Assembly (NCBI RefSeq): GCF_900101505.1 | Contig: NZ_FMZI01000002.1 | Span: forward strand, 1 to 64,000 | DNA length: 64,000 nt | Direction: 5' to 3' | Origin: Antarctobacter albus | GTDB taxonomy: Bacteria; Pseudomonadota; Alphaproteobacteria; Rhodobacterales; Rhodobacteraceae | In this document: piece after piece, positions 44,459 through 58,867 of the stretch | Layout: each line of letters starts with the position of its first letter | How positions within the stretch are numbered: the stretch's first letter is position 1 | Translations under genes and position numbers: made by a program | Notes under the pieces: model-generated | Seen by the model: the letters and a program-made list of their open reading frames with translations, nothing else | What the model was told of the DNA's origin: nothing | Databases searched by the model: none

Positions 44459-44643
44459 GCGCAGAGGGCCCATGCGCAAAGGGACAGGCACGGCCAGCGG
44501 CCGGCGAAGGATAGGTCAGGGCGCATCGCGGTCTCCGGAGTGGTTCGGCCTCAGGCTATCGCGGTTTCGGCGCGGGCCACAAGATTGCTTGCGTGCCCGG
44601 CGCCGTTCTTGCAGGCGTTTGCCGTTTCAGCCGCCGCTCAGGG

Positions 44644-47196
44644 TCAGGCGCCCAGGATACGGGCCACCATTTCGCCGGTGTCCCGGCTCAGCTTGGGTTT
44701 CGCTTGCAGCCGCTCCAGTTCCGCACGCATCAGCGCCTGGCGCTCGGCGTCGTAGCGTTTCCAGGTCTGGAAGGCCGAGGTCATGCGCGCCGTCGTCTGC
44801 GGGTTCAGGTCGTCCAGCTTGATCAGCCAGTCCGTCAGCAGGCGGTAGCCCGAGCCGTCCTTGCGATGGAATCCTGCGTGGTTCATCGCCAGCGCGCCCA
44901 TCACCGCGCGGAAGCGGTTGGGGTTCTTCCAGTCGAAATCGGCATGCCGGGTCAGGGCCTCGGCCCGGGGCACCACGTTTTCCGGTGCCGTTGCCCCGAC
45001 CTGCAGGCCGAACCACTTGTCCATGACCAGACGGTCATGCCGCCACTGGTCCTCGAAGGCGGCCAGTGCCTCGGCATCCTCGCCCAGGCGGATGATCTGT
45101 GCCAGGGCCGAGAGTTGCAGCGTCATGTTGTCGGCGCTGGCAAACTGCGCCCGCGCCGCCTTGCCGCCATCCAGCCGCGAGGTCAGGGCCAGAACCGCCG
45201 CGCCAAGCGCGCGCTTGCCCGATTGTTCCGCGTCCGGCGCAAAGGGCGCGTCCACAGTTCCCTCGGCGGCCAGCCCGGGCAGCAGGTCGGCCCAGCGTTC
45301 GGCCTTGACCTGGGCCAGCACCTCCTTGGCTGCATGGATCGCGTCCGGGTCCGGCGTCTCCCCGCGTTCGAAAAGAACCTGCGCCAGTTCCGACTCCGTC
45401 GGCGTGCCCATCATCATCGCGCGATAGGCCGGGTCCAGGTCGCGGTCACGCAAGAGCCGTTCCAGCCCGTCAAGCCAGGCCTCGTCCGGGCCGGCATCCT
45501 CGCAGACCATCGCGATCAGGCTTTCGCGGGCCAGCAGGCGCGACGCCTCCCAGCGGTTGAACGGGTCGGTGTCATGGGCCAGCAAAAAGGCGCGCTCCTC
45601 GCGGCTCGACTCGCGGTCCAGCACCACCGGCGCCGAGAATCCGCGGTTGATCGAGGGCACGGGGCGCGAGGCCAGACCGTCAAAGGTGAAGGTCTGCTCA
45701 GCCTCGGTGATCTCCAGCACGCGGGTCGGCACCACCTCGTCGCCGTTCGGGTTGAGCAGCCCCACCGCCATCGGGATCACCTGAGGTTCCTTCTGTTCCT
45801 GCCCGGGCGTGGGCGGCGTGTGCTGCTTGAAGGTCAGCGCATAGGTGCCGTCGGCCCAGTCCTCCGTTACCTCGACGCGCGGTGTACCGGCCTGCGAATA
45901 CCAGCGCTTGAACTGCGTCAGGTCGCGGCCCGTCGCATCCTCGAACACCTTGAGCCAGTCCTCGATCGTCGCCGCATCGCCGTCGTGACGGTCAAAGTAG
46001 AGGTCCAGCGCCTTGGCATAGGCCTCATCCCCGACCAGCGTCTTGAGCATGCCGATCACCTCGGCGCCCTTTTCATAGACCGTGGCGGTGTAGAAGTTGT
46101 TGATCTCCTGGAAACTTTCGGGCCGGACGGGGTGCGAAAGGGGCCCCTGGTCCTCGGGGAACTGGCGGGCGCGCAACTGCGCCACGTTCTCGATCCGCGC
46201 CACCGGGGCCGAGCGTACATCCGCCGTGAACTGCTGGTCGCGGAAGACGGTCAGACCTTCCTTGAGGCAGAGCTGGAACCAGTCGCGGCAGGTGATGCGG
46301 TTGCCGGTCCAGTTGTGGAAATACTCATGCGCGATGATCGCTTCGATGCGTTCGAAATTGCCGTCGGTCGAGGTTTCCGGAGAGGCCAGGACGCAGGAGG
46401 AGTTGAAGATGTTCAGACCCTTGTTCTCCATCGCGCCCATGTTGAAATCGTCCACGGCGACGATGTTGAAGACGTCCAGGTCGTATTCGCGGCCATAGAC
46501 ATCCTCGTCCCATTTCATCGAGGTCTTCAGCGCCTCCATGCCGAAGGCGCATTTGCCCTCGTCGCCCGGACGCACCCAGATGTTCAGCTTGACCTCCTTG
46601 CCGGACCGGGTGGTGAAGCGATCCGGAAAATTCACCAGGTCGCCCGCCACCAGCGCGAAGAGGTACGCCGGCTTGGGCCAGGGATCGTGCCATTCGGCCC
46701 AGCCCTCACCCCGGTCGACCGAGTTGCCGTTCGACAAAAGCACCGGCAGATCGCCCTCGATCCGCACGGAAAACACGCTCATGACGTCGGGGCGGTCGGG
46801 ATAATAGGTGATCTTGCGAAAGCCCTCGGCCTCGCACTGGGTGCAATACATGCCGCTGGACATGTAAAGGCCCTCCAGCGCGGTATTGTCCTCGGGCGCG
46901 ATTTCCACCTCCGCCTCCCACAGGAAGGGGCCGTCCGGCACGGCACAGCGCAAACCCTCGGGCGTGACCTCCGGCGTCACCTCGACCCCGTCTATGGTGG
47001 CGCGGATCAGCTTCAGGTCCTCACCGTGCAGAAAGAATTCCTGCGCGGGGGCCTCGGGGTTGGGAGCGAAATGGATCTTCGAGATCACCCGCGTCGACTT
47101 GGGCGCAAGGCGAAAGGTCAGGTGCACGTCGCTGACCTGCCAGCCGAAGGGGGTGTAGTCCTTGAGATAGATGGTCTCGGGGGCGGCGTCTTTCAT
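44644..47196 (-). CDS. pepN: Aminopeptidase N
   Basis: An 850-residue M1 metallo-aminopeptidase. The exopeptidase motif GAMENKGLN and zinc site HEYFHNWTGNR (HExxH plus a distal glutamate in LCLKEGLTVFRDQQF) are present. It removes N-terminal residues from peptides in the cytoplasm. The start at 47196 has GAGGA upstream; the longer frame is not supported. It is divergent from the photolyase gene, only 89 bases apart. Confidence 0.95.
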   Translation of the reverse strand: MKDAAPETIYLKDYTPFGWQVSDVHLTFRLAPKSTRVISKIHFAPNPEAPAQEFFLHGEDLKLIRATIDGVEVTPEVTPEGLRCAVPDGPFLWEAEVEIAPEDNTALEGLYMSSGMYCTQCEAEGFRKITYYPDRPDVMSVFSVRIEGDLPVLLSNGNSVDRGEGWAEWHDPWPKPAYLFALVAGDLVNFPDRFTTRSGKEVKLNIWVRPGDEGKCAFGMEALKTSMKWDEDVYGREYDLDVFNIVAVDDFNMGAMENKGLNIFNSSCVLASPETSTDGNFERIEAIIAHEYFHNWTGNRITCRDWFQLCLKEGLTVFRDQQFTADVRSAPVARIENVAQLRARQFPEDQGPLSHPVRPESFQEINNFYTATVYEKGAEVIGMLKTLVGDEAYAKALDLYFDRHDGDAATIEDWLKVFEDATGRDLTQFKRWYSQAGTPRVEVTEDWADGTYALTFKQHTPPTPGQEQKEPQVIPMAVGLLNPNGDEVVPTRVLEITEAEQTFTFDGLASRPVPSINRGFSAPVVLDRESSREERAFLLAHDTDPFNRWEASRLLARESLIAMVCEDAGPDEAWLDGLERLLRDRDLDPAYRAMMMGTPTESELAQVLFERGETPDPDAIHAAKEVLAQVKAERWADLLPGLAAEGTVDAPFAPDAEQSGKRALGAAVLALTSRLDGGKAARAQFASADNMTLQLSALAQIIRLGEDAEALAAFEDQWRHDRLVMDKWFGLQVGATAPENVVPRAEALTRHADFDWKNPNRFRAVMGALAMNHAGFHRKDGSGYRLLTDWLIKLDDLNPQTTARMTSAFQTWKRYDAERQALMRAELERLQAKPKLSRDTGEMVARILGA

Positions 47197-47285
47197 CGGG
47201 TCCTCGCGGGGCTGGAAGCTCTTGCCCGTGACCCTAGGTCGGAGCCGAGGGGGCTGCAATGGCAGCGCAGCGGAAAGGAGAGCCG

Positions 47286-48797
47286 ATGCCCGTGATCCTC
47301 TGGTTCAAGCGCGATCTGCGCGTGACCGACAACGCGGCGCTGTTGCGCGCCTGCGAACTCGGGGATGTCCTGCCGCTCTACATCGTCGAACCGGGGCTCT
47401 GGGCGCAGCCCGACGTCTCTGCCCGGCAGTACGCCTTTCTTTGCGAAACGCTGCAAGGGCTGCGCGCGGACCTGCGTGCCCTGGGCAGCGACCTGGTGAT
47501 CCGGGTCGGCGCGGCGGTCGAGGTGCTCGAGGCGCTGCGCCGGGAAACCGGGGCAAACCGGCTGGTCAGCACCGAGGAAACCGGCAACGCCTGGAGTTTT
47601 GCCCGCGACAGGGCCGTGGCCGCCTGGGCCGCGGGGCAGGGGGTACGCTGGCAGGAACTACCGCAGTCGGCGGTGCGGCGCGGGCGGCATGACCGCGATG
47701 GCTGGGCCGCCCATCGCAACCGGCTGATGTCGCAGGATCCGTTGCCGGCGCCCCCCGCGCTGCCGCCGGTCCCCCTGTGCTCCGATCCCCTGCCGGATGC
47801 CGCCGCCCTTGGGCTGGGGGCCGATCCCTGCCCGGGGCGCCAGCATGGCGGCCGCGCCGAGGCCGAGGCCCTGCTGAACAGCTTCCTGACAGAGCGTGGC
47901 CAGACCTATCGCAAGGCCATGTCGACCCCGCTGGAGGGCGCAAGCGCCTGTTCGCGGCTGTCGCCTCACCTGGCCCTCGGGGCACTCAGCCCGCGCGAGG
48001 CGGTGCGCGCCACCGCCGCCCGCCAACGCGCGGTCAAGGGCACGCGGACGGGTTGGTCCGGCAGCCTGAAAAGCTTTCAGTCCCGCCTCGCCTGGCGCGA
48101 CCATTTCATCCAGAAAATGGAGGACGAGCCGGACCTGGAATGGCGCGCCCTGCATCGCGCCTACGAGGGCCTGCGCCCCGCCGAACCGGATGCCGCCCGT
48201 CTTGCCGCCTGGGAAAAGGGTGAAACCGGGCTGCCCTTCGTCGACGCCTGCATGCGCTCGCTCATTGCCACCGGCTGGCTCAATTTCCGGATGCGCTCGA
48301 TGCTGATGAGCGTCGCCTCCTACCATCTCTGGCTGCCCTGGCAGCGCACGGGTCAGCACCTGGCCCGGCTTTTTACCGATTACGAACCAGGCATCCACTG
48401 GAGCCAGGTCCAGATGCAGTCCGGCACCACGGGGATCAACAGCCTGCGCATCTACAATCCCGTCAAACAGGGCCACGATCAGGATCCGACCGGCGTCTTC
48501 ACCCGCCGCTGGTGCCCGGACCTGGCGGGTGTGCCGGACCAATACCTGCAGGAACCCTGGCGCTGGGACGGGCAGGCCGATTATCCGCCGCCAATCGTCG
48601 ATGTGAAACAGGCGGCGAAGGCGGCCCGCGAGGCCATCTGGTCGGTCCGCAAGGAGGAGGGGTTCCGCGACGAGGCCGCCCGGGTCCTGCACAAGCACGC
48701 CTCGCGCAAGGATCCACAACGCCATTTCGTCAACGACCGCGCGCCGCGCAAACGGCGCCCCGCCAACGACAGCCGCCAGCAGAGCTTTGATTTCTGA
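47286..48797 (+). CDS. Cryptochrome/photolyase family protein (FAD-binding)
   Basis: A 503-residue photolyase-family flavoprotein: [20 protein letters not shown] at the N-terminus, the FAD region [20 protein letters not shown] and [19 protein letters not shown], and the C-terminal [17 protein letters not shown], common in bacterial cryptochrome-like photolyases. No 4-Cys Fe-S cluster motif is seen, so it is not a FeS-BCP type. It repairs UV damage using light or acts as a blue-light sensor. Good ribosome-binding site GGAAAGGAG. The stop overlaps the DUF2256 start. Confidence 0.9.
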
Positions 48798-49098: not shown

Positions 49099-52000
49099 TC
49101 ACTCCGCCGCGCGCAGGTCCGGTGTCAGCTCCATCGTGGTCGCGGGCGCATCTTCCCAGATGATCTCGGGCGATTTCACCTGGCGTGCCGCACGGTTCAG
49201 CGCCCAGTCGCGCGCCGCCCGACTGCCACGACCAAAGCTCAACCTTGCCAGGAGGCGCGCGAACCACAGCACGTAGGTCGTGAACCAGACCCGGATCGCC
49301 AGCATCGCGGGGGTAAAGACCAGCGTCAGCACGGTCGCGATCCCCAGGCCGAACACCACGGCTGTTGCCAGGTTCTTCCACCACAGCGCAGTCGGGCTGT
49401 CGATCGAATAGCCGCCGTTGAAGAAATCCAGGCTGAGCCCCAGCATCATCGGCGCAAGGCCCGCCATCGTGGTGATCGTGGTCAGAAGGACGGGGCGAAT
49501 GCGATCCTGCGCGGTGCGCACGATGGCCTCGATCCGCGGCATGAAGCGCGAATACTCCTGGTAGGTGTCGATCAGCACGATGTTGTTGTTCACGACGATC
49601 CCCGCCAGCGCCACGATCCCCGTTCCGGTCATGATGATCGAGAAATACTGATCCATCACCAGCATGCCGATCAGCACGCCCGTCGTCGACAGGATCACCG
49701 CCAGCAGCACCAGCACCGAGTTGTAGAAGCTGTTGAACTGCGCCAGCAGGATGATGAACATCAGGAACAGCGCGCCGCCAAAGGCCGATTGCAGGAAGGC
49801 CTGGCTTTCCTCCTGGTCCTCCTGGTCGCCGGTCCATTCCCATTCGATGCCCGCGGGCAGCGGATCGGTCTGCAGCCATTCGGTCAGCACCTCGATCCGT
49901 TCCGTCCCCGTCACCGGCACGACCTTCAGCCGCGACATCTCGCCGGCGCCCGCCTGGGCGGCGACCTCCTCGGGCGACATGTCGGTCAGCCAGCGCACGT
50001 CGCCGAAGTGGCGGAGATTTTCCCCCATCAGCCATTCGAAGAACCCCGACGAACGGCCAAAGTCATGGCTCCAGTCCGCGGCCGAGATGTCGGAGGTTTC
50101 CGGATCCAGCTCGACGCCGGTCATCAGCGGCACGAACTCGGTCTTGTCCGTACCGTCCGGGCCGGTCGTCGTCACATCCCAGCCGATCTCCATCAGGCTT
50201 TCGCGGACACCCGCCTTGACGTCGAAAAAGCGCGTCTGGTCGATGCGCTCGATCTCTGCCAGCTTGGCCACCGGCTCGCGGGTGATGAAATTCACCAGCG
50301 GCACCAGCCCGTCCGGGGTGCGGACCTTGAGGCTGTCCAGCGTGGAGAGCACGCGGTTTTCCTCGGGCAGGCGCACGCGGATGTCGATTTCCTCGTCCGA
50401 GGTGCCGGGGGTATAGCTGCCGATGGCCAAACCGCGCGTCACCAGCTGCACCATCGCGCCCACGGTGGCCACGTCGGCGCCGTAGCGGCCCGCCTTTTCC
50501 ACGTCCACGTCGATCTGCCAGTCGATGCCGGGCAGGGGGCGCGTGTCCTCGACCAGGGTCAGGCCCGGGGTGCTGTCGAACTTGGCCCGCACGACGCCAG
50601 CCGCCTCCAGCAGCGCGGTCCAGTCATCGCCGCGCAGTTGCAGGTGCACCGGCTTGGCGCTGGCCGGGCCGCGCGCCTGGGCCAGGATCTCGATCTCGAC
50701 GCCGGGAATGCGCTCCAGCTTTTCGGTCAGGTCGTCGAGGATCACGTCGCCGTCCAGCTGTGCCAGCGGGATGCCGTTGGCACGGGCATAGGCGGGGCGG
50801 TCGTCCCAGGAAATCGTCTCGAACTGGACCTGGCCGATGGTGTCCTTGGGCGCCGCGGCGCCGCCGGTGTTGTTGTCCAGCCCGCCTTCACCGGCAAAGG
50901 AGAAGGCATTGAGGATGCCGGGATGGGTCAGGACGATCTGTTCGGCCCGCTTCACCAGCGCGTCCTTTTCCGCAAGGCTCAGGTTGCCGCGTGCGCGGAC
51001 GTAAACGATGGCCTGCTCCGGTTCGCTTTCGACGAAGAAGTCCACGCCGTTGTTGTTCTCGCCGTAATAGGCGAAGACGCTGATGACAAAGCCGACGACG
51101 GCAAAGACCGTCACCAGCGGCATGATCGGGTTGCCGGCGATCAGCTTGGTGAAACTGCCGAAGAAGGTCCGGCGGCTGCGGGCGTCGACGCGCTTGGGCT
51201 TGCGCCGGATTTCGGCGGCGTCCATCACCACCGAAGAGATCACCGCAAAGAGCACGAAGACCACGACGCCCGGCATGTGCGCGCTCCAGCCCGTCGCCTC
51301 TGTCGGGCCCAGGTAGCTGGGGTTGAGGACCATCATGGCGCCGGTGAACAGCCCCAGGATCGCGACGGGCACCAGCAGGATGCGCAGGCTCCAGTGCAGG
51401 CGCGCGCGCAGCCAGTCGCCCGCACGGTGCACGTTGCGCGAGAACCGCCCCGAGACGCCGCCCATGACCGGCAGGTAGATCAGCGCCACCACCAGCGAGG
51501 CGGTCAGCACGAAGATGATGGTGATCGGCAACATGCCCATGAACTCGCCCGCGACACCGGGCCAGAACAGCATCGGCAGGAAGGCGCAAAGCGTCGTCGC
51601 GGTGGACGAAACCACGGGCCAGAACATCCGGTGCGCGGCCTCGACATAGGCGTGCATCGGGCCGGTGCCCTCGGCGATGCGCTTGTCGGCGTATTCCACC
51701 ACCACGATGGCGCCGTCGACAAGGATGCCCACGGCCAGGATCAGCCCGAACATCACGATGTTCGAGATCGTCACCCCCATCATCGCCAGCAGCACGAAAC
51801 ACAAGAGGAAAGAGGTCGGAATGGCAAAGCCTACCAGCAGCGCGGGCCGCAGGCCCAGGCTTGCCAGCACCACGATCATCACCAGCGCGATGGCCGTCAG
51901 AACGGACCCTTCGAGCTGGCTGACCATGCTGGCCACCTGCCGGCTCTGGTCGTTCGAGGTGCCCACGTCCAGCACCGCGCGCAGCTCGTCGGGCCAGGTC

Positions 52001-52920
52001 TCCTGCGCTGTGGCCAGTTCGGCCTTCACCTGCGCCACGGTGTCGATGATGTTGAAGCCCTTGCGCTTGACCACCTGCAGGGCCACGGTCTGCGCGCCGT
52101 TGAAGCGCGCCGTGCCCTTGCGGTCCTCGAAGGTCAGGTTGATCGAGGCCAGGTCGCCCAGCGTCACCACGCGGTCGCCGTTCACCTTGACCGGCAGGTC
52201 ATAGACATCGCGCGCATCGTCAAAGCTGGACGGGATCTTGACCGAAAAGGCGCCGTTTTCCGTTTCAACCTCGCCCGCGGCGATCAGCTGATTGTTGTTC
52301 TGGACAACGCGGATCAGCTCGTCGGCGGTGACGTTGTAGCTTTCGAGCCTGAGCGGGTCGATCACCACTTCCAGCATCTCGTCGCGGTTGCCCGCGATCC
52401 CGGCCTCCAGCACGGAATCGAGTCCTTCGAGCCGGTCCTGCAGGTCCTTGGCCACCTTGTTCAGGGTGCGTTCCGGCACCGGGCCGGACAGGTTGACGAT
52501 CAGGATCGGGAATTCCGAGAAGTTGATCTCGTTGATCGAGTATTTCTCGGCGCCCTCGGGGAACTCGGCCTCGGCGTTGTTCATGCCATCGCGCACGTCG
52601 GCGATGATCTTGGTCTTGTCCCAGCCGAACTCGAACTCCAGCGCCAGGCCAGCATAGCCCTCGGCGGCGGTGGCGGTCATCTTTTTCAGCCCGTCGAGGT
52701 CCGACAGCTCTGTCTCCATCGGCTTGACCAGCAGCTTTTCGGAGTCGGCGGCCGAAATGCCGGGGAAGGGGACCGAGACAAACAGCGCCGGGATCTCGAT
52801 GTCCGGTTCGCCCTCCTTGGGCAGCGAGACATAGGCATAGGCCCCGACCACGAGGCTGAGCACGATGAAGGCGATGATCATTCGGGCCCGTGCGGCGGCC
52901 CAGTCGATGATGCCGGTCAT
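49099..52920 (-). CDS. Efflux RND transporter permease
   Basis: A 1273-residue inner-membrane RND permease, with the usual two six-helix halves and large periplasmic loops. The TM4 proton-relay signature reads GILVDGAIVVVEYAD (about residue 400): the first aspartate is kept but the second of AcrB is a glycine, as seen in some metal or other RND pumps. The chain is about 200 residues longer than AcrB. It starts with MTGIIDWAAARARMIIAFIV and overlaps the adaptor gene by 4 bases (ATGA). It exports an unknown substrate and has no outer-membrane factor gene beside it. Confidence 0.92.
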   Translation of the reverse strand: MTGIIDWAAARARMIIAFIVLSLVVGAYAYVSLPKEGEPDIEIPALFVSVPFPGISAADSEKLLVKPMETELSDLDGLKKMTATAAEGYAGLALEFEFGWDKTKIIADVRDGMNNAEAEFPEGAEKYSINEINFSEFPILIVNLSGPVPERTLNKVAKDLQDRLEGLDSVLEAGIAGNRDEMLEVVIDPLRLESYNVTADELIRVVQNNNQLIAAGEVETENGAFSVKIPSSFDDARDVYDLPVKVNGDRVVTLGDLASINLTFEDRKGTARFNGAQTVALQVVKRKGFNIIDTVAQVKAELATAQETWPDELRAVLDVGTSNDQSRQVASMVSQLEGSVLTAIALVMIVVLASLGLRPALLVGFAIPTSFLLCFVLLAMMGVTISNIVMFGLILAVGILVDGAIVVVEYADKRIAEGTGPMHAYVEAAHRMFWPVVSSTATTLCAFLPMLFWPGVAGEFMGMLPITIIFVLTASLVVALIYLPVMGGVSGRFSRNVHRAGDWLRARLHWSLRILLVPVAILGLFTGAMMVLNPSYLGPTEATGWSAHMPGVVVFVLFAVISSVVMDAAEIRRKPKRVDARSRRTFFGSFTKLIAGNPIMPLVTVFAVVGFVISVFAYYGENNNGVDFFVESEPEQAIVYVRARGNLSLAEKDALVKRAEQIVLTHPGILNAFSFAGEGGLDNNTGGAAAPKDTIGQVQFETISWDDRPAYARANGIPLAQLDGDVILDDLTEKLERIPGVEIEILAQARGPASAKPVHLQLRGDDWTALLEAAGVVRAKFDSTPGLTLVEDTRPLPGIDWQIDVDVEKAGRYGADVATVGAMVQLVTRGLAIGSYTPGTSDEEIDIRVRLPEENRVLSTLDSLKVRTPDGLVPLVNFITREPVAKLAEIERIDQTRFFDVKAGVRESLMEIGWDVTTTGPDGTDKTEFVPLMTGVELDPETSDISAADWSHDFGRSSGFFEWLMGENLRHFGDVRWLTDMSPEEVAAQAGAGEMSRLKVVPVTGTERIEVLTEWLQTDPLPAGIEWEWTGDQEDQEESQAFLQSAFGGALFLMFIILLAQFNSFYNSVLVLLAVILSTTGVLIGMLVMDQYFSIIMTGTGIVALAGIVVNNNIVLIDTYQEYSRFMPRIEAIVRTAQDRIRPVLLTTITTMAGLAPMMLGLSLDFFNGGYSIDSPTALWWKNLATAVVFGLGIATVLTLVFTPAMLAIRVWFTTYVLWFARLLARLSFGRGSRAARDWALNRAARQVKSPEIIWEDAPATTMELTPDLRAAE

Positions 52921-54860
52921 TGTATGATATCCTCGTAACTCGGAACCACGGTCACGCCGTTGGTGACATACTCCTGGCCGACGGTGATCACGTTGATCTC
53001 ATCCGGCAGGCCGGTGATCCAGACCCCGTCGCGGGTGTCGCGCAGGATCGAGACATCCATCCACTGCACGCTGTCGTCCGGCTTGACCGTGCGCACGCCC
53101 AGCTTGCCCTGGTCGTTCAGGGTCAGGGTGGATTGCGGCAGGAGATGCGCCTTGGCGCCCTCGGCCTCTATGGCGACCTCGGCGGTCTCGCCGTCGCGGA
53201 TCGACAGATCGGCGTTGTCGACGGTCAGTTCCACCAGGAAGGTCCGGGTGGTCGGATCGGCACTGCGCGACACGAAAGTGACCTCACCCTGCACGATACG
53301 CCCGTTGGTCAGCCGGGCGCCCGCCTTGGCGCCCACCATCACGCGCGCGACGGTGGTTTCGGGCACGTAGCCGACAATCTTGATCGGGTTCAGCTGGATC
53401 ACGGTGGCGCAGGCCGATCCGGGCTGCAGCAAGGCGCCCAGTTCCGCCGTGTCGGTCTCCAGCAGCCCGGCAAAGGGGGCGTGCACCTTCAGGCGGTCGA
53501 TCTCGCGCCGGGCCGAGGCCACGGCGGCCTCGGCGGACTGGATCGCGCTCAAGGCGCTTTCTTCGCCGGTCCTGGCGGACTGGATGCCCGCCGTCGCGGT
53601 TTCAAGCTGGGCGCGGGCGGCGATGACCGCCGCCTTGGCGCCTTCGACGCCGGACAGGGCCGAGGCCACGGCGGCCTTGGCCCCCTGAAGCTGGCTTTGC
53701 GCGGATTGCACGCCGGCCAGGGCGTTCTGGATCTGCGCCTTGGCCGAGATCACCCCGGCACTGGCATTGCGGATGCCGCTTTGGGCCGCCTGCACGGCGG
53801 CCTTTGCCGTCTCGACCTGGCTCTTGGCGGTCTGGACGGCGGCCAGCGCTCCCTGGAGTTGAGACTTGGCCGCCTCGATGCCGGAGGCGGCGGATTTCAG
53901 CCCCAGTTGCGCGGTCTGCACGGCGGTCAGCGCGGTTTCATAGGCGGCTTCGGCCCCGGCCAGCCGGGTCTGCGCGGCAAAACCGTCGCGGGCCAGTTCC
54001 TGCGAGGCGCGCAGGTTGATTTCCGCCTCGCGCACCTGTGCCTGGGCCTGTTTCAACCGCGCCTCGGCCTCGGGCACGCGGGCCTCCGCCTCGGCCAGAA
54101 GGGCCTTTGCGGCGGGGACACCGGCCTCGGCTTCTTTCAGGCGGGCCTCGGCAGCGGGCACAGCAGCCTTCGCCTCTGCCAGCCGGGCCTCGGCCTCGGG
54201 GACGCGGGCCTCTGCCTCTTCCAGCCGGGCCTCGAACTCTGGCACCCGTGCCCTGGCCTCTGCCAGCCGGGCCTCGGCGGCGGGTATGTTGGCGCGGGCC
54301 TCGGCCAGCTGTGCCTCGGCGGCGGGCACGGCAGCCTCGGCCTCTAGGATGCGCGCCTGGGCAGAGGGAAGCTGTGCCTGCGCTTCGGCCAGCCGGGCCT
54401 TGGCCTCGGGCAGGCGCGCCTTGGATTCGGCCAGGCGGGCCAGCGCCTCTTGCAGGGAAACCTGGCTGGTGCCCGGGTCGATCTCGCACAGCAATTGCCC
54501 GGCCTCGACCAGCGATCCCTTGCGCAGCGGTTCGGACACGATCTTGCCCGAGGTTTCGGCCCGCACCTCGACCTGGCGAACGGCCTGCGTTTCGCCGCGC
54601 AGGATCACCTCGCTGTCGACAACCTGCGCCACCGACCGCTTGGCCATCACGCGCACCGCGCCTTCGGGCAGGGCATCGGGGGCACCGGCCTCCAGCGCCG
54701 GGTCCGCGCCATCGGCAGGATCAGGCCCGCCATCCGCAACGTCCCCCTGCGCTGTCGGGGCCACCTCGCGGGAGAATTCCAGCAGTCGGTCCCGTTCGAA
54801 CACAACCCCGTATAGGACCGCGGCCACAAGGCAGGCGGTCAGGATAGACATGATGCGCAT
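52917..54860 (-). CDS. RND periplasmic adaptor (MFP) with giant alpha-hairpin
   Basis: A 647-residue adaptor (twice the usual length). TM anchor about 4-22, then a spacer, the first lipoyl half (VRAETSGKIVSEPLRKGSLV), a very long helical hairpin (about residues 142-456), the return lipoyl half (KVHAPFAGLLETDTAEL) and the barrel/MP domains. One arm consists of ten 14-residue repeats (RLAEA-x-A-x-VPEAEA), the other of about 21 heptads. The tip is QELARDGFAAQTRLAG. The start at 54860 has AAGGGA upstream. It bridges the RND pump to an outer-membrane partner. The next gene (permease) overlaps by ATGA. Confidence 0.92.
   Translation of the reverse strand: MRIMSILTACLVAAVLYGVVFERDRLLEFSREVAPTAQGDVADGGPDPADGADPALEAGAPDALPEGAVRVMAKRSVAQVVDSEVILRGETQAVRQVEVRAETSGKIVSEPLRKGSLVEAGQLLCEIDPGTSQVSLQEALARLAESKARLPEAKARLAEAQAQLPSAQARILEAEAAVPAAEAQLAEARANIPAAEARLAEARARVPEFEARLEEAEARVPEAEARLAEAKAAVPAAEARLKEAEAGVPAAKALLAEAEARVPEAEARLKQAQAQVREAEINLRASQELARDGFAAQTRLAGAEAAYETALTAVQTAQLGLKSAASGIEAAKSQLQGALAAVQTAKSQVETAKAAVQAAQSGIRNASAGVISAKAQIQNALAGVQSAQSQLQGAKAAVASALSGVEGAKAAVIAARAQLETATAGIQSARTGEESALSAIQSAEAAVASARREIDRLKVHAPFAGLLETDTAELGALLQPGSACATVIQLNPIKIVGYVPETTVARVMVGAKAGARLTNGRIVQGEVTFVSRSADPTTRTFLVELTVDNADLSIRDGETAEVAIEAEGAKAHLLPQSTLTLNDQGKLGVRTVKPDDSVQWMDVSILRDTRDGVWITGLPDEINVITVGQEYVTNGVTVVPSYEDIIQ
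53493..53933 (-). repeat. Return arm of adaptor: about 21 heptad repeats
   Basis: Encodes uninterrupted seven-residue units such as SQLQGAL, AAVQTAK, SQVETAK, AAVQAAQ, SGIRNAS and AGVISAK, with small residues in a/d-like positions and no proline. Length about 147 residues, within one heptad of the opposite arm. Confidence 0.85.
54018..54437 (-). repeat. Ten tandem 14-residue repeats in adaptor arm
   Basis: Ten consecutive 42-base units encode variants of RLAEAEARVPEAEA. A proline occupies position 10 in the first nine units and is replaced by arginine in the tenth. Lys/Arg/Glu/Ala content is high. Such strict repetition at the DNA level means recombination could lengthen or shorten the arm. 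Confidence 0.9.
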
Positions 54861-55205
54861 CGTCTTCGTCCCTTCGGCGCCGAGCCACGTGGCCCGCCGC
54901 ACATCCTGTTAATCGTTACGTTGCCGAGCCGACCCGAACCCCGCGACCCGGGCGACTCCGGGCTGAACTGTTCCGTTCAGTTTTAGGGTGCCGCGACGGA
55001 GGCTTCAAGCACGGGGCCGGTTTTTGCGCTGCAAAGCGGCGGTTTTTCGACAATTCTGCGAGAGTTTCGCGATTAACGGGCATCTACGCGACAATTCGCT
55101 GGTCCGGTTTGGGGCCTGCAAACGCCCCTTGCCGGTATGCCTTCTCGCCTTGGCACTGCGCGGCGGGACATGTAAGAGGGAGAAAACCAACCGGAGGGGG
55201 CCCGT
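54861..55205. promoter_or_regulatory. Divergent intergenic region (RND adaptor / yfgM-like)
   Basis: 345 bases with no supported gene. Minus-strand promoter of the RND pair and plus-strand promoter of the yfgM-bamB-der group must lie here. Several short T- and G-rich runs (GGTTTTTGCGCTGC, GCGGTTTTTCGAC) are present, but no defined operator could be identified. A 73-aa open frame in this stretch has no ribosome-binding site and is rejected. Confidence 0.4.
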
Positions 55206-55862
55206 TTGAGCGACGCCGACAGTTTTATCGACGAGGTGACCGAAGAGGTCAAACGCGACCGTCTTTTCGCCACTTTGCGCAAGTGGGGCTGGGTTGGCGT
55301 GGTCATCGTGCTTCTTATCGTCGGCGGCACCGCCTGGCGTGAATGGAGCATCGCCTCGGCCGAATCCCGGGCTCAGGCCTTTGGCGACAGCGTGCTTGAC
55401 GCGCTGGATGCAGAGGAACCGGCGCAGCGTATCGACGCCCTGGCCGCAATCGACGCGCCCACGACCGGCGCCGCGGCGATTCTGTCGATGCTGACCGCTG
55501 CCGAGGAAGGCACCGCAGGCGATGACGCCGAGGCGGTCGCCCGCCTGCAGGCGGTGGCCGACAATACCGAGATCCCGGCCATCTATCGCCAGATCGCCAG
55601 CTACAAGGCCCTGACCCGCGGCGCATCCGTCCTGCCGGTCGACGAACGCCGCGCGGGCTTCGAGGCGCTGGCCGTGCCGGGGCAACCGCTGCGCCTGCTG
55701 GCCGAAGAGCAACTGGCCCTGATCGAGATCGAAACCGGCGAGCGTGACGCCGCGATTGCACGGCTGGAACGCCTGGCAGAAGATGCCGAGGCGACGCAGG
55801 GCTTGCAGCGCCGGGCCGGGCAACTGATTGTGGCACTGGGCGGCGACGCGCCCGGAAACTGA
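55206..55862 (+). CDS. YfgM-like tetratricopeptide membrane protein
   Basis: A 218-residue protein with an N-terminal membrane helix (WGWVGVVIVLLIVGGTAW) and a periplasmic TPR-like helical domain (SRAQAFGDSVLDALDAEEPA ... LLAEEQLALIEIETGERDA). YfgM-type proteins are ancillary to the SecYEG translocon and to BamB in other proteobacteria. The start is TTG at 55206 after GGAGGGGG. It precedes bamB by 60 bases, matching the conserved yfgM-bamB-der order. Confidence 0.87.
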   Translation: MSDADSFIDEVTEEVKRDRLFATLRKWGWVGVVIVLLIVGGTAWREWSIASAESRAQAFGDSVLDALDAEEPAQRIDALAAIDAPTTGAAAILSMLTAAEEGTAGDDAEAVARLQAVADNTEIPAIYRQIASYKALTRGASVLPVDERRAGFEALAVPGQPLRLLAEEQLALIEIETGERDAAIARLERLAEDAEATQGLQRRAGQLIVALGGDAPGN

Positions 55863-55927
55863 GCCCGCGCAGGCGGGGCGCACGGCGGGGGGCAGGGCCC
55901 CGGGTAGTGACGAAAAGGGGCATGGTG

Positions 55928-57262
55928 ATGCTGCGCAAGACCTCTCTGCTGATTTCGCTGGCCGCGCTGGCGCTGACGGCCTGTGCCAAGAGCGAGCAGA
56001 TCCTTCCGGGGGAACGTCTGAACGTCCGGGATGTGCTGACAGGCGGTTACGATGACGGCGCCGCCCCGGCATCGACCGGCCCGCAGGCCCGCGCCTTTTC
56101 CACACCTGCCAGCGTGACCAACACCGACTGGGCGCAAAGCCCCGTGTCGCCGATGGTCCGGGTCACCAACCCGGCCCTGGGACAGGTTCTGAAGCCGCTG
56201 TTTTCGGTCGGGATCGGCGCGGGCGACGGGCGCAAGACGCGGCTGAATGCCGATCCGATCGTCGCGGGCGGTCGCATCTTCACGATGGACGCCAACCACC
56301 AGGTCCGGGCGACCGCGACCTCGGGTCAGCAACTGTGGTCCGCGACCCTTGTCCCGCAGCGCGACAAGGCGCCCGAAGGACAGGGCGGCGGGCTGGCCTA
56401 CGGCGAGGGCAAGCTGTTCGTCTCGTCCGGTTTCGGCATGCTGACCGCGCTGGACCCGGCCACGGGGCGCAAGCTCTGGGAGCAGGACCTCAAGAACACC
56501 GCCACCGGCGCGCCCAGCTATCGCGACGGGCTGGTCTACGTCGTCTCGGGTGACAGCACCGCATGGGCGATCGAAAGCGACGATGGCCGCGTCCGCTGGC
56601 AGTTCGACGGCACCAAGGATTTCAACAACATCGCCGGAGCGCCCGCCCCCGCGATTGACGACAAGTACGTTGTCTTTGCCTTCGGATCGGGTGCCGTGTC
56701 TGCGGCTTTCCGGCAGGGCGGGCTGCAGGTCTGGAACGCCGAGCTGCTGGGCCGCCGGACCGGCGTCACCATCGCCGGCATCAACGATATCACCGGGGAT
56801 CCGGTGATCGCGGGCGACCGCGTCTTTGCCGGCAACCACTCGGGGCGCGCGGTGGCGTTGTCGGTCTACAACGGAGAGCGCATCTGGACTGCCAAGAACG
56901 GTGCTCTGGGTCCGATGTGGCCCGCCGGCGATTCGGTGTTCTTCGTCTCGGATCTCAACCAGCTTGTGCGGCTGGACGCGGGCACGGGCCAGGAAATCTG
57001 GAGCCGTGACCTGCCGGGCTATCGCCCGACGCGCAACCCGAACCGCCGCCGCGACGGCGCCTATGCCAACCACGGACCGGTGCTGGCGGGGGGGCGCCTG
57101 ATCGTGGCCAGTTCGGATGGCAAGATCAGGGCCTTCAACCCGGTCGACGGCAAGTTGTTGCAGGAAATCGCGATCCCCGGTGGCGCCACGACGCGCCCCG
57201 TGGTGGCGGGCGGCACGCTGTACGTCGTGTCCCGCAAGGGCGTTCTGCACGCCTACCGCTAG
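55928..57262 (+). CDS. bamB: Outer membrane assembly lipoprotein BamB (PQQ-like propeller)
   Basis: A 444-residue lipoprotein (lipobox LTAC at about residue 17) with an eight-bladed PQQ-like propeller: repeated ATGRKLWEQD, SYRDGLVYVVSGDS, NGERIWTAKNG and PVVAGGTLYVVSRKGVLHAY. It is part of the Bam complex that folds outer-membrane beta-barrels. AAGGGGC gives the best spacing with the ATG at 55928, and 55922 is possible. It is positioned between the YfgM-like gene and der. Confidence 0.92.
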   Translation: MLRKTSLLISLAALALTACAKSEQILPGERLNVRDVLTGGYDDGAAPASTGPQARAFSTPASVTNTDWAQSPVSPMVRVTNPALGQVLKPLFSVGIGAGDGRKTRLNADPIVAGGRIFTMDANHQVRATATSGQQLWSATLVPQRDKAPEGQGGGLAYGEGKLFVSSGFGMLTALDPATGRKLWEQDLKNTATGAPSYRDGLVYVVSGDSTAWAIESDDGRVRWQFDGTKDFNNIAGAPAPAIDDKYVVFAFGSGAVSAAFRQGGLQVWNAELLGRRTGVTIAGINDITGDPVIAGDRVFAGNHSGRAVALSVYNGERIWTAKNGALGPMWPAGDSVFFVSDLNQLVRLDAGTGQEIWSRDLPGYRPTRNPNRRRDGAYANHGPVLAGGRLIVASSDGKIRAFNPVDGKLLQEIAIPGGATTRPVVAGGTLYVVSRKGVLHAYR

Positions 57263-57394: not shown

Positions 57395-58867
57395 ATGAGT
57401 TTCTCTCTTGCCATCGTCGGCCGCCCAAACGTGGGCAAGTCGACCCTGTTCAACCGTCTCGTCGGGCGGCGCCTGGCGCTGGTCGACGACCAGCCGGGCG
57501 TGACCCGTGACCTGCGCGAAGGCGAGGCCAAACTGGGCGACCTGCGGTTTACTGTCGTCGACACTGCCGGGCTTGAGAACGAGACCGACGAGTCTCTGCC
57601 CGCCCGGATGCGGCGGCTGACCGAACGGGCCGTGGACGAGGCGGACATCTGCCTGTTCCTGATCGACGCGCGCGCCGGCATCCTGCCCGATGACGAGGTG
57701 TTTGCAGAGATCCTGCGCAAGCGGGCGAAACACGTCATCCTTGCAGCCAACAAGGCCGAGGGATCCGCGGCGGATGCGGGCGTGATCGAGGCCTATTCGC
57801 TGGGCCTGGACGAGCCGATCCGCCTGTCGGCCGAGCATGGCGAGGGCATGAACGAGCTTTATGCCGCCCTTCTGCCCCTGTCCGAAGGGTTCGAGGCGCG
57901 GGCCGCCGCAGAAGCGCCGGAAGTCGAGGTCACGCTGAGCGAGGAAGAGGCCGAGGCGGGCGAGGGCGACATGCGCCTGCCGACGCGGGACAAGCCCCTT
58001 CAGATCGCCGTGGTCGGGCGCCCGAACGCGGGCAAGTCGACGCTGGTGAACGCGATCCTGGGCGAGGAACGGTTGCTGACCGGGCCTGAGGCAGGGATCA
58101 CGCGCGACGCGATCTCGGTCCAGATGGACTGGGGCGGCGTGCCGATGCGGATTTTTGACACGGCAGGGATGCGGCGCCGGGCCAAGGTCCAGGACAAGCT
58201 GGAAAAGCTGTCGGTCTCGGATGGCATCCGGGCGGTGAAATTCGCAGAGGTGGTCGTGGTGCTGCTGGATGCGGCCATCCCCTTCGAGACCCAGGACCTG
58301 AAGATTGCCGACCTTGCCGAGCGCGAGGGGCGGGCCGTGGTCGTGGCGGTCAACAAGTGGGACGTTGAGAACGAGAAACAGGACAAGCTGAAATGGCTGC
58401 GCGAGCAGTTCGAGCATGTCCTGCCGCAGCTGCGCGGCGCGCCGCTGGTGACAATTTCCGCCCGGACGGGCAAGGGGCTGGACCGGCTGCAGGCCGCGAT
58501 CATGCAGGCCTATGATGTCTGGAACCGCCGCGTGCCCACGGCGCAGCTGAACCGCTGGCTGGAAGGCATGGTGAGCCGCCATCCGCCCCCCGCGCCGCAG
58601 GGCCGCCGCATCAAGCTGCGCTACATGACCCAGGCCAAGACCCGGCCGCCGGGGTTTGTCGTGATGTGTTCGCATCCCGACAAGCTGCCCGAGAGCTATT
58701 CGCGCTACCTTGTGAACGGGCTGCGCGAGGATTTCGACATGCCGGGCACGCCGATCCGCCTGACCATGCGCGGGCAGGGCGACCGCAACCCTTACAAGGG
58801 GCGCAAGAAGAAGAACGCGGGCGCGCTGAAGAAGCACCTGGGCAAGCTGCAGTCGAAGAAGGACTGA
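57395..58867 (+). CDS. der: GTPase Der (EngA)
   Basis: A 490-residue double-GTPase needed for 50S ribosome assembly. Both G domains are visible: [20 protein letters not shown] (first P loop), DTAGLENE, and the second [37 protein letters not shown]. The KH-like C-terminal domain follows. An acidic linker ([15 protein letters not shown]) separates the G domains. It is complete; the 132-base gap after bamB holds a hairpin near CCCCCGGTGTGAACCGGGG. Confidence 0.97.

Follow-up and report, generated by a model that had tools for sequence, protein, structure and literature searches.

Rhodobacteraceae carry a syntenic RND periplasmic adaptor gene whose coiled-coil hairpin differs ninefold in length among orthologues, with outgoing arms of 32 to 291 residues, and whose two arms stay matched in every one of the 166 orthologues measured. 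We consider it rather likely that this is a TolC-type RND adaptor in which tight constraint on the length of the shaft has been lifted and arm balance and the tip are still enforced.

The gene that led to this series lies at positions 52917..54860 on the minus strand of a 64,000-nucleotide stretch of the Antarctobacter albus genome (hereafter, the window) and encodes 647 aa from a conserved ATG. Its open reading frame spans 52917-54902 (minus strand), and an alternative GTG at 54902 would yield 661 aa; orthologues, in a 28-row alignment, back the ATG at 54860. A first-pass annotation of the sequence had proposed an RND adaptor, which is borne out by the TIGR01730 RND_mfp profile (155.7 bits, above the cut-off of 94.9) and by an RND permease alongside. 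Pfam HlyD_3 (58.8 against a cut-off of 22.2) and HlyD_D23 were matched as well. The protein is an AcrA/MexA-type RND adaptor (TIGR01730), and it shares the domain order and fold of AcrA and MexA: in its AlphaFold model, lipoyl halves flank an antiparallel hairpin, followed by a beta-barrel and a membrane-proximal domain, and Foldseek matched the model to AcrA, MexA, MacA, EmrA and BesA. The second lipoyl half, the beta-barrel and the membrane-proximal domain map to 52920..53480 (minus strand), based on AlphaFold strands 458-641 and on Foldseek matches to AcrA, MexA and BesA. At the other end, a hydrophobic helix predicted at residues 3-32 (54765..54854, minus strand), with similar hydrophobic starts in orthologues, is a probable uncleaved membrane anchor, unlike AcrA, which is annotated as a lipoprotein. 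An EmrA-type adaptor of the MFS class was ruled out, since the partner is an RND permease and the EmrA profile stayed below its cut-off (56.2 vs 390.8 bits).

Arms were measured between fixed anchors: from the D of DPGT to the tip G for the outgoing arm, and from the tip G to the A of APFAG for the return arm (D128, G293 and A461 in the window adaptor). The outgoing arm thus covers 165 residues from D128 to the tip (53985..54479, minus strand; helix 132-291), and the proline-free return arm covers 168 residues, G293 to H460 (53481..53984, minus strand; helix 297-455). As the first-pass annotation had it, and inside the coordinates it gave (53493-54437), the outgoing arm contains ten consecutive 14-mers. 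They are of the LAEAxAxVPxAEAR type, encoded from 54434 to 54015 (minus strand), and nine of them carry proline at the same place in our reading of the translation; Tandem Repeats Finder detected the repeat independently, in three overlapping rows within 54040-54441 (best score 278). The return arm is built from heptads in which a is hydrophobic and d is alanine. Arms of 140 and about 147 residues had been proposed from these repeats; the match between them stands, and the lengths are revised to the somewhat longer anchored values of 165 and 168. AlphaFold, supplied with 28 orthologues, returned two helices, 160 and 159 residues long and without a break, joined by a 5-residue tip loop, with no fold-back of the arms in the window adaptor's model, in keeping with the predicted giant antiparallel hairpin. 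Mean pLDDT was 83; averaged over ten residues it ranged from 81 to 95 in the arms and dropped to 68 at the tip. We ascribe the low pTM (0.40) to the very elongated shape. The three nearest relatives of the window adaptor, from Mameliella genomes at 85-96% identity, all have arms of 165/168 residues, so the long arms seen in the window are unlikely to stem from faulty assembly or annotation.

At 1.5 angstroms per residue, each arm extends over ~24 nm, so the great length first put at ~210 angstroms holds, as does the claim that the hairpin outstrips those of AcrA and of EmrA-like adaptors: the accessible part of PMC4158417 gives 58 angstroms for AcrA, 47 for MexA and 127 for aaEmrA (A. aeolicus; 11 heptads per helix), the 12.7 nm of which it terms exceptionally long. 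The hairpin is thus ~4 times longer than in AcrA/MexA and differs further in the prolines that recur at 14-residue intervals along one of its arms. EmrA of A. aeolicus resembles the window adaptor in its long two-helix coiled coil between lipoyl halves but, as described in that same part of PMC4158417, works with an MFS partner, lacks a membrane-proximal domain and shows heptad phase shifts, whereas the window adaptor has ~22-23 heptads per arm with no phase break in 7-residue rows. PqiB and other MCE proteins, described in PMC10897342 as spanning the periplasm, resemble the window adaptor as a single inner-membrane component that may bridge it, and offer an analogy only; no MCE-type profile was among the profile matches of the window adaptor. 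Our search of the PMC literature, with subscription papers mostly outside its scope, returned no report of this adaptor family, of RND adaptor arms so long, or of a length series within one set of orthologues.

The genomic setting establishes orthology. The RND permease gene (49099..52920, minus strand; 1273 aa; Pfam ACR_tran, E=2.2e-141) starts in overlap with the adaptor stop (ATGA), and three divergent plus-strand neighbours fix synteny: TPR_21 (55206-55862), BamB (55907-57262) and Der (57395-58867). Across 100 orthologous loci (L065-L164), these neighbours were present in 100, 99 and 87 cases, respectively. The adaptor gene is a syntenic orthologue across Rhodobacteraceae, and synteny together with the adjacent permease rejects paralogue confusion as a source of length variation. 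Seven other adaptor-like frames in the window's genome have short hairpins, as judged by eye. Through BamB, the divergent arrangement ties the adaptor/permease pair to a gene of outer-membrane assembly, and this link is conserved across the family.

A same-strand permease frame accompanied the adaptor in 106 of 107 fetched loci (two duplicates among them), the exception (L081) being a short fetched stretch; one locus (L091) holds only a 282-residue piece, and in another (L106) the frame begins 763 bases on. From stop to stop, 89/106 frames measure 1190-1330 residues. The remainder either reach further upstream and so are longer, or are shorter, in some cases through truncation at a contig end. 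The permeases are 50-96% identical to that of the window and ordinary in length whatever the adaptor hairpin. Compared with E. coli AcrB, 286 of 1017 aligned residues of the window permease are identical. Among the AcrB residues D407, D408, K940 and R971, which we take to form the proton relay, D407 aligns with Asp and R971 with Arg, D408 with Gly and K940 with Asn; because of the latter two, the proton relay of this permease may differ. Relative to AcrB, the window permease is also interrupted by insertions of 28, 38 and 18 residues, which follow AcrB positions 611, 758 and 819. Elsewhere in the window, at 44593-47295, long frames of 900 and 871 aa overlap on both strands, and the plus-strand one had no Pfam match at E 1e-5.

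To follow the hairpin across the family, we measured two sets of orthologues. The family search gave matches in 339/394 genomes. For the first set, 100 genomes were taken from the top of the score list, with a few listed genomes skipped, and the window plus five named loci brought the set to 106; two duplicates (L027, L028) were dropped, two loci (L030, L031) gave no orthologue and three (L032-L034) were left out. As the query of the family search included the long hairpin, this set is enriched in long arms. The second set comprised 60 genomes, hand-picked rather than random, from the matches of a C-terminal domain query; it contained a single long arm (1/60), and one of its hairpins was identical to one of the first set. 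First-set tips were found through a single tip match in 99/107 rows and through the match nearest the middle in the other 8, with one (L090) placed by eye; a profile-based tip search agrees in all 106. Second-set tips were located by profile, not by position.

The return arm exceeded the outgoing arm by three residues in 106/106 first-set and 60/60 second-set orthologues (166/166, representing 165 distinct hairpins), the constant +3 being a consequence of how the anchors are defined. The match between the two halves is not chance: shuffling the return arms among the 106 first-set orthologues gave 20 matches on average and 32 at most (2000 shuffles), and for the 33 long forms, all of which match as observed, shuffling gave a mean of 4 matches and a maximum of 14. 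No unbalanced hairpin that could represent an intermediate occurred among the 166. The arms form a ladder of 19 different lengths, with outgoing-arm values of 32, 39, 46, 53, 60, 67, 74, 95, 109, 123, 137, 151, 165, 179, 207, 221, 235, 277 and 291 residues. All 166 are 4 mod 7, that is, they differ by heptad steps, and the 34 arms of at least 95 residues (33 from the first set, one from the second) are all 11 mod 14. The commonest rung was 53 in both sets (39/106 and 42/60). Seventeen of the 33 long forms measure 151-179 residues, four of these being the window and its three close Mameliella relatives, and nine measure 207-291. E. coli AcrA (K-12 record) takes its place on the same ladder at 39/42, with one 7-residue gap per arm relative to a 46-rung orthologue. 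Adaptor hairpins are described as lengthening and shortening by whole heptads in both helices in the part of PMC4446572 at hand. The first-pass annotation had held that a repeat count varying greatly between strains, with no effect on the length of the complex, would tell against its reading, and great variation is largely what we see: the arms of syntenic orthologues span 32 to 291 residues. Even within the genus, as assigned in our genome set, Antarctobacter heliothermus has an arm of 291 as opposed to 165 in the window.

The sequence of the shaft is as regular as its length. In arms of at least 137 residues, each 14-residue unit of the outgoing helix has one position occupied by proline in 99% and another occupied by glutamate in 98%. 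The core of this helix has Leu/Val/Ile at a and Ala at d; that of the return arm has Val/Ile/Leu at a and Ala at d, with Gly, Ser and Gln abundant elsewhere. The outgoing arms contain 437 prolines, of which 395 share a single position mod 14; another 33 are offset from it by seven residues, 9 lie elsewhere, and not one proline occurs in the 106 return arms. This one-sided lattice provides regular bending in the outgoing helix alone and may, by extension, curve the tube. The conserved 14-residue phase and the proline lattice suggest that the shaft itself is under selection.

Length has changed repeatedly within the family. On the best hairpin-free tree—in which 26/103 inner branches are well supported and many are weak—we count at least 44 changes of exact length and nine changes between long and short. 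A. heliothermus (291) groups with Mameliella (165) at a support of 100/93, and another genome with 165-residue arms falls outside this group (100/99). Arms of 291 residues occur in four genomes (L073, L074, L075, L076), whose hairpins are 60-75% identical, and amount to four changes on the best tree. At the DNA level, repeat units of the same arm reach 95% identity (L083), which points to recent tandem duplication. Between the window adaptor and that of A. heliothermus, both arms break at 83 residues from the base; among 25 hand-picked pairs, the relative heights of the duplications in the two arms matched no better than permuted ones (p=0.27). Outside the family, the best 27 alphaproteobacterial loci (L300-L326) yielded 20 measurable hairpins and seven that failed anchoring; all 20 had a 67-residue hairpin, with the tip glycine at a 32/35 split in 19. 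Length is therefore constant in the measurable non-family relatives and variable in Rhodobacteraceae.

Could shaft length be selectively neutral, with repeat slippage adding and removing units, only imbalance being purged and length left to wander? The near-identical repeat units and the many length changes are what such slippage would leave, and neither TolC nor permease length clearly varies along with the arm, while the TolA rod does so only a little (see below). We nevertheless judge neutrality unlikely, given that all 20 measured non-family loci share one hairpin length, that the window and three Mameliella adaptors, down to 85% protein identity, all sit at 165, that 291 recurs four times, and that 166 orthologues contain no unbalanced intermediate. 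The concentration of 17/33 long forms at 151-179 and the four arrivals at 291 speak against pure drift and suggest preferred lengths, keeping alive the idea that length has a function.

The hairpin tip of the window adaptor (L289-ARDGFAAQTR; 53964..53996, minus strand), defined by a tip profile over 106 orthologues, has a partial RLS-type motif with Ala at the R and S positions. This TolC-docking motif reads R-x3-L-x6-S, and is not absolute, according to the section of PMC4446572 consulted. L(-4) is invariant in 106/106 first-set and 60/60 second-set tips and, like arm balance, was free of the pattern used to find the tip. The S position (+3) is Ser in 80/106 and 56/60 and otherwise Ala (26/106, window included), although the first-set pattern fixed G and allowed only A or S at +3, so that both letters are partly there by construction. 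The R position (-8) is Ala in 99/106 and 58/60. In the family as a whole, L is hence retained, S for the most part and R not; the window tip retains L alone, lacking the R and S found in AcrA/MexA. Short and long forms have equally conserved tips. TolC-family matches (TIGR01844) were present in 80/80 genomes tested, over the cut-off in 78, and those of the window's genome lie on other contigs. Matched TolC length is uncoupled from arm length (Spearman 0.05, n=78).

The length of the shaft raises the possibility, put forward in the first-pass annotation, that it reaches the outer membrane by itself. We scaled the geometry from MexAB-OprM at 0.1485 nm per residue, borrowing E. coli and Pseudomonas dimensions; the MexAB-OprM values given in the available portion of PMC4754349 are 23 nm between the membranes, of which MexB takes 7 nm, OprM 10 nm and MexA ~6 nm. 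By this scaling, rung 53 spans 25 nm with TolC; rung 165 places the tip ~31.7 nm above the inner membrane, a span of 32 nm without TolC and 42 nm with it; and rung 291 comes to 50 nm without and 60 nm with TolC. Wild-type E. coli has an inner-to-outer membrane distance of 30-32 nm under hyperosmotic conditions, as stated in the accessible text of PMC8824477. Simple geometry would thus allow the window's 165 form to touch the outer membrane alone, and on these borrowed dimensions it fits unaided contact only for rungs near 151-179.

From here it is a short step to long forms as self-sufficient conduits, in which a hexameric tube would reach the outer membrane without TolC and only short forms would need it. 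The window tip height is close to the E. coli distance, the 17/33 long forms at 151-179 would stand at ~30-34 nm, and the docking-motif serine is replaced by Ala in 26/106 first-set tips, the window's among them. The same scaling, with its E. coli and Pseudomonas dimensions, has arms of 207-291 (9/33, including A. heliothermus) overshoot by ~6-20 nm; conservation of the tip does not differ between short and long forms, every genome tested has TolC-family genes, and the model contains no extra element resembling an outer-membrane insertion part beyond the adaptor fold. We give self-sufficiency only a small chance. The original proposal of unaided reach consequently survives for the geometry of the window's rung (~32 nm) and finds no support as a general rule, as the 291 form would overshoot by ~20 nm and TolC-family genes are ubiquitous in the genomes tested; the uncoupled TolC length, the near-equal TolA rods and the retained L of the RLS motif count against such a rule as well.

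As a caliper of the periplasm we took the proline-rich rod of TolA, measured in 39 of 40 fetched genes (one at a contig start was dropped). E. coli TolA has a long helix; TolA of the window's genome (L167, L258) has a proline-rich rod with 30% Pro. Median rods were 250 residues in the short group (11 genomes) and 258.5 in the long group (28). Rod and arm length correlated weakly (Spearman 0.41, p=0.01, n=39; slope 0.07 residue per residue), not significantly so inside the long group (0.21); for the TolA open frame, the coefficients were 0.40 (n=78) and 0.49 within long forms. Two supported independent pairs gave no power to control these correlations for relatedness. The periplasm may accordingly differ a little among genomes, but with medians ~8 residues apart and a slope of 0.07 we do not claim that it scales with the arm.

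At 50 nm, the 291 form of the same genus would be unable to stand upright in the same envelope. In the AlphaFold model of the A. heliothermus adaptor (905 residues), both arms are broken at matching mid-height (~266-283 and 565-573; pLDDT ~45-60), opening the possibility of a hinge; this low-confidence break could be an artefact of size and of the thin alignment (18 rows). One might then suppose that the long hairpin is shortened by folding back or hinging into a more compact bundle, with an effective length well below 1.5 angstroms per residue—as in CusB, a fold-back precedent described in PMC4446572. The broken A. heliothermus arms would agree with this, subject to the reservations just given, and the unbroken window model, with its mean pLDDT of 81-95 over both arms, would not; such a fold-back strikes us as quite improbable.

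We therefore return to an adaptor with a loosely constrained shaft. Most likely it is the periplasmic part of an RND exporter encoded by two genes, and it has a short-hairpin relative throughout Alphaproteobacteria; in Rhodobacteraceae its shaft has been repeatedly lengthened and shortened by gain and loss of repeats in both arms. A helical tube of six adaptors would stand on the permease trimer, and the tips of the six would dock a TolC-type channel encoded elsewhere. Selection would enforce register, meaning equal arms and an intact tip, and hold absolute length loosely; if so, a long form must fit into the periplasm by a tilt, a curve or a hinge in its tube, and curvature or flexibility may come from the prolines, which recur at 14-residue intervals along a single face of the outgoing helix and are confined to that helix. 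Against this reading count the Ala at two of the three RLS positions in the window, the weak correlation of TolA with arm length, the signs of preferred lengths, and the hint of selection on the shaft itself. A bolder alternative casts these adaptors as natural periplasmic rulers that jumped repeatedly from TolC-length (53-74) to outer-membrane-reaching (151-179) forms, and from these to the 43-nm form that recurs (291), by balanced 14-residue pairs, possibly dispensing with TolC. We regard it as very unlikely; were it true, one exporter would have changed its mode of crossing the envelope.

One syntenic gene with 19 lengths, never unbalanced in 166 cases, turns a known remark on heptad-wise change (in the part of PMC4446572 available) into a measurable rule. 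Nature has here run an experiment on the determinants of hairpin length, and the series challenges the idea that this length simply fits the gap between the membranes. Must tripartite pumps match the periplasm, and how does a shaft of 24 to 43 nm work in a compartment of ~20 to 30 nm? For structural work on such questions, the orthologues amount to a graded set of natural constructs.
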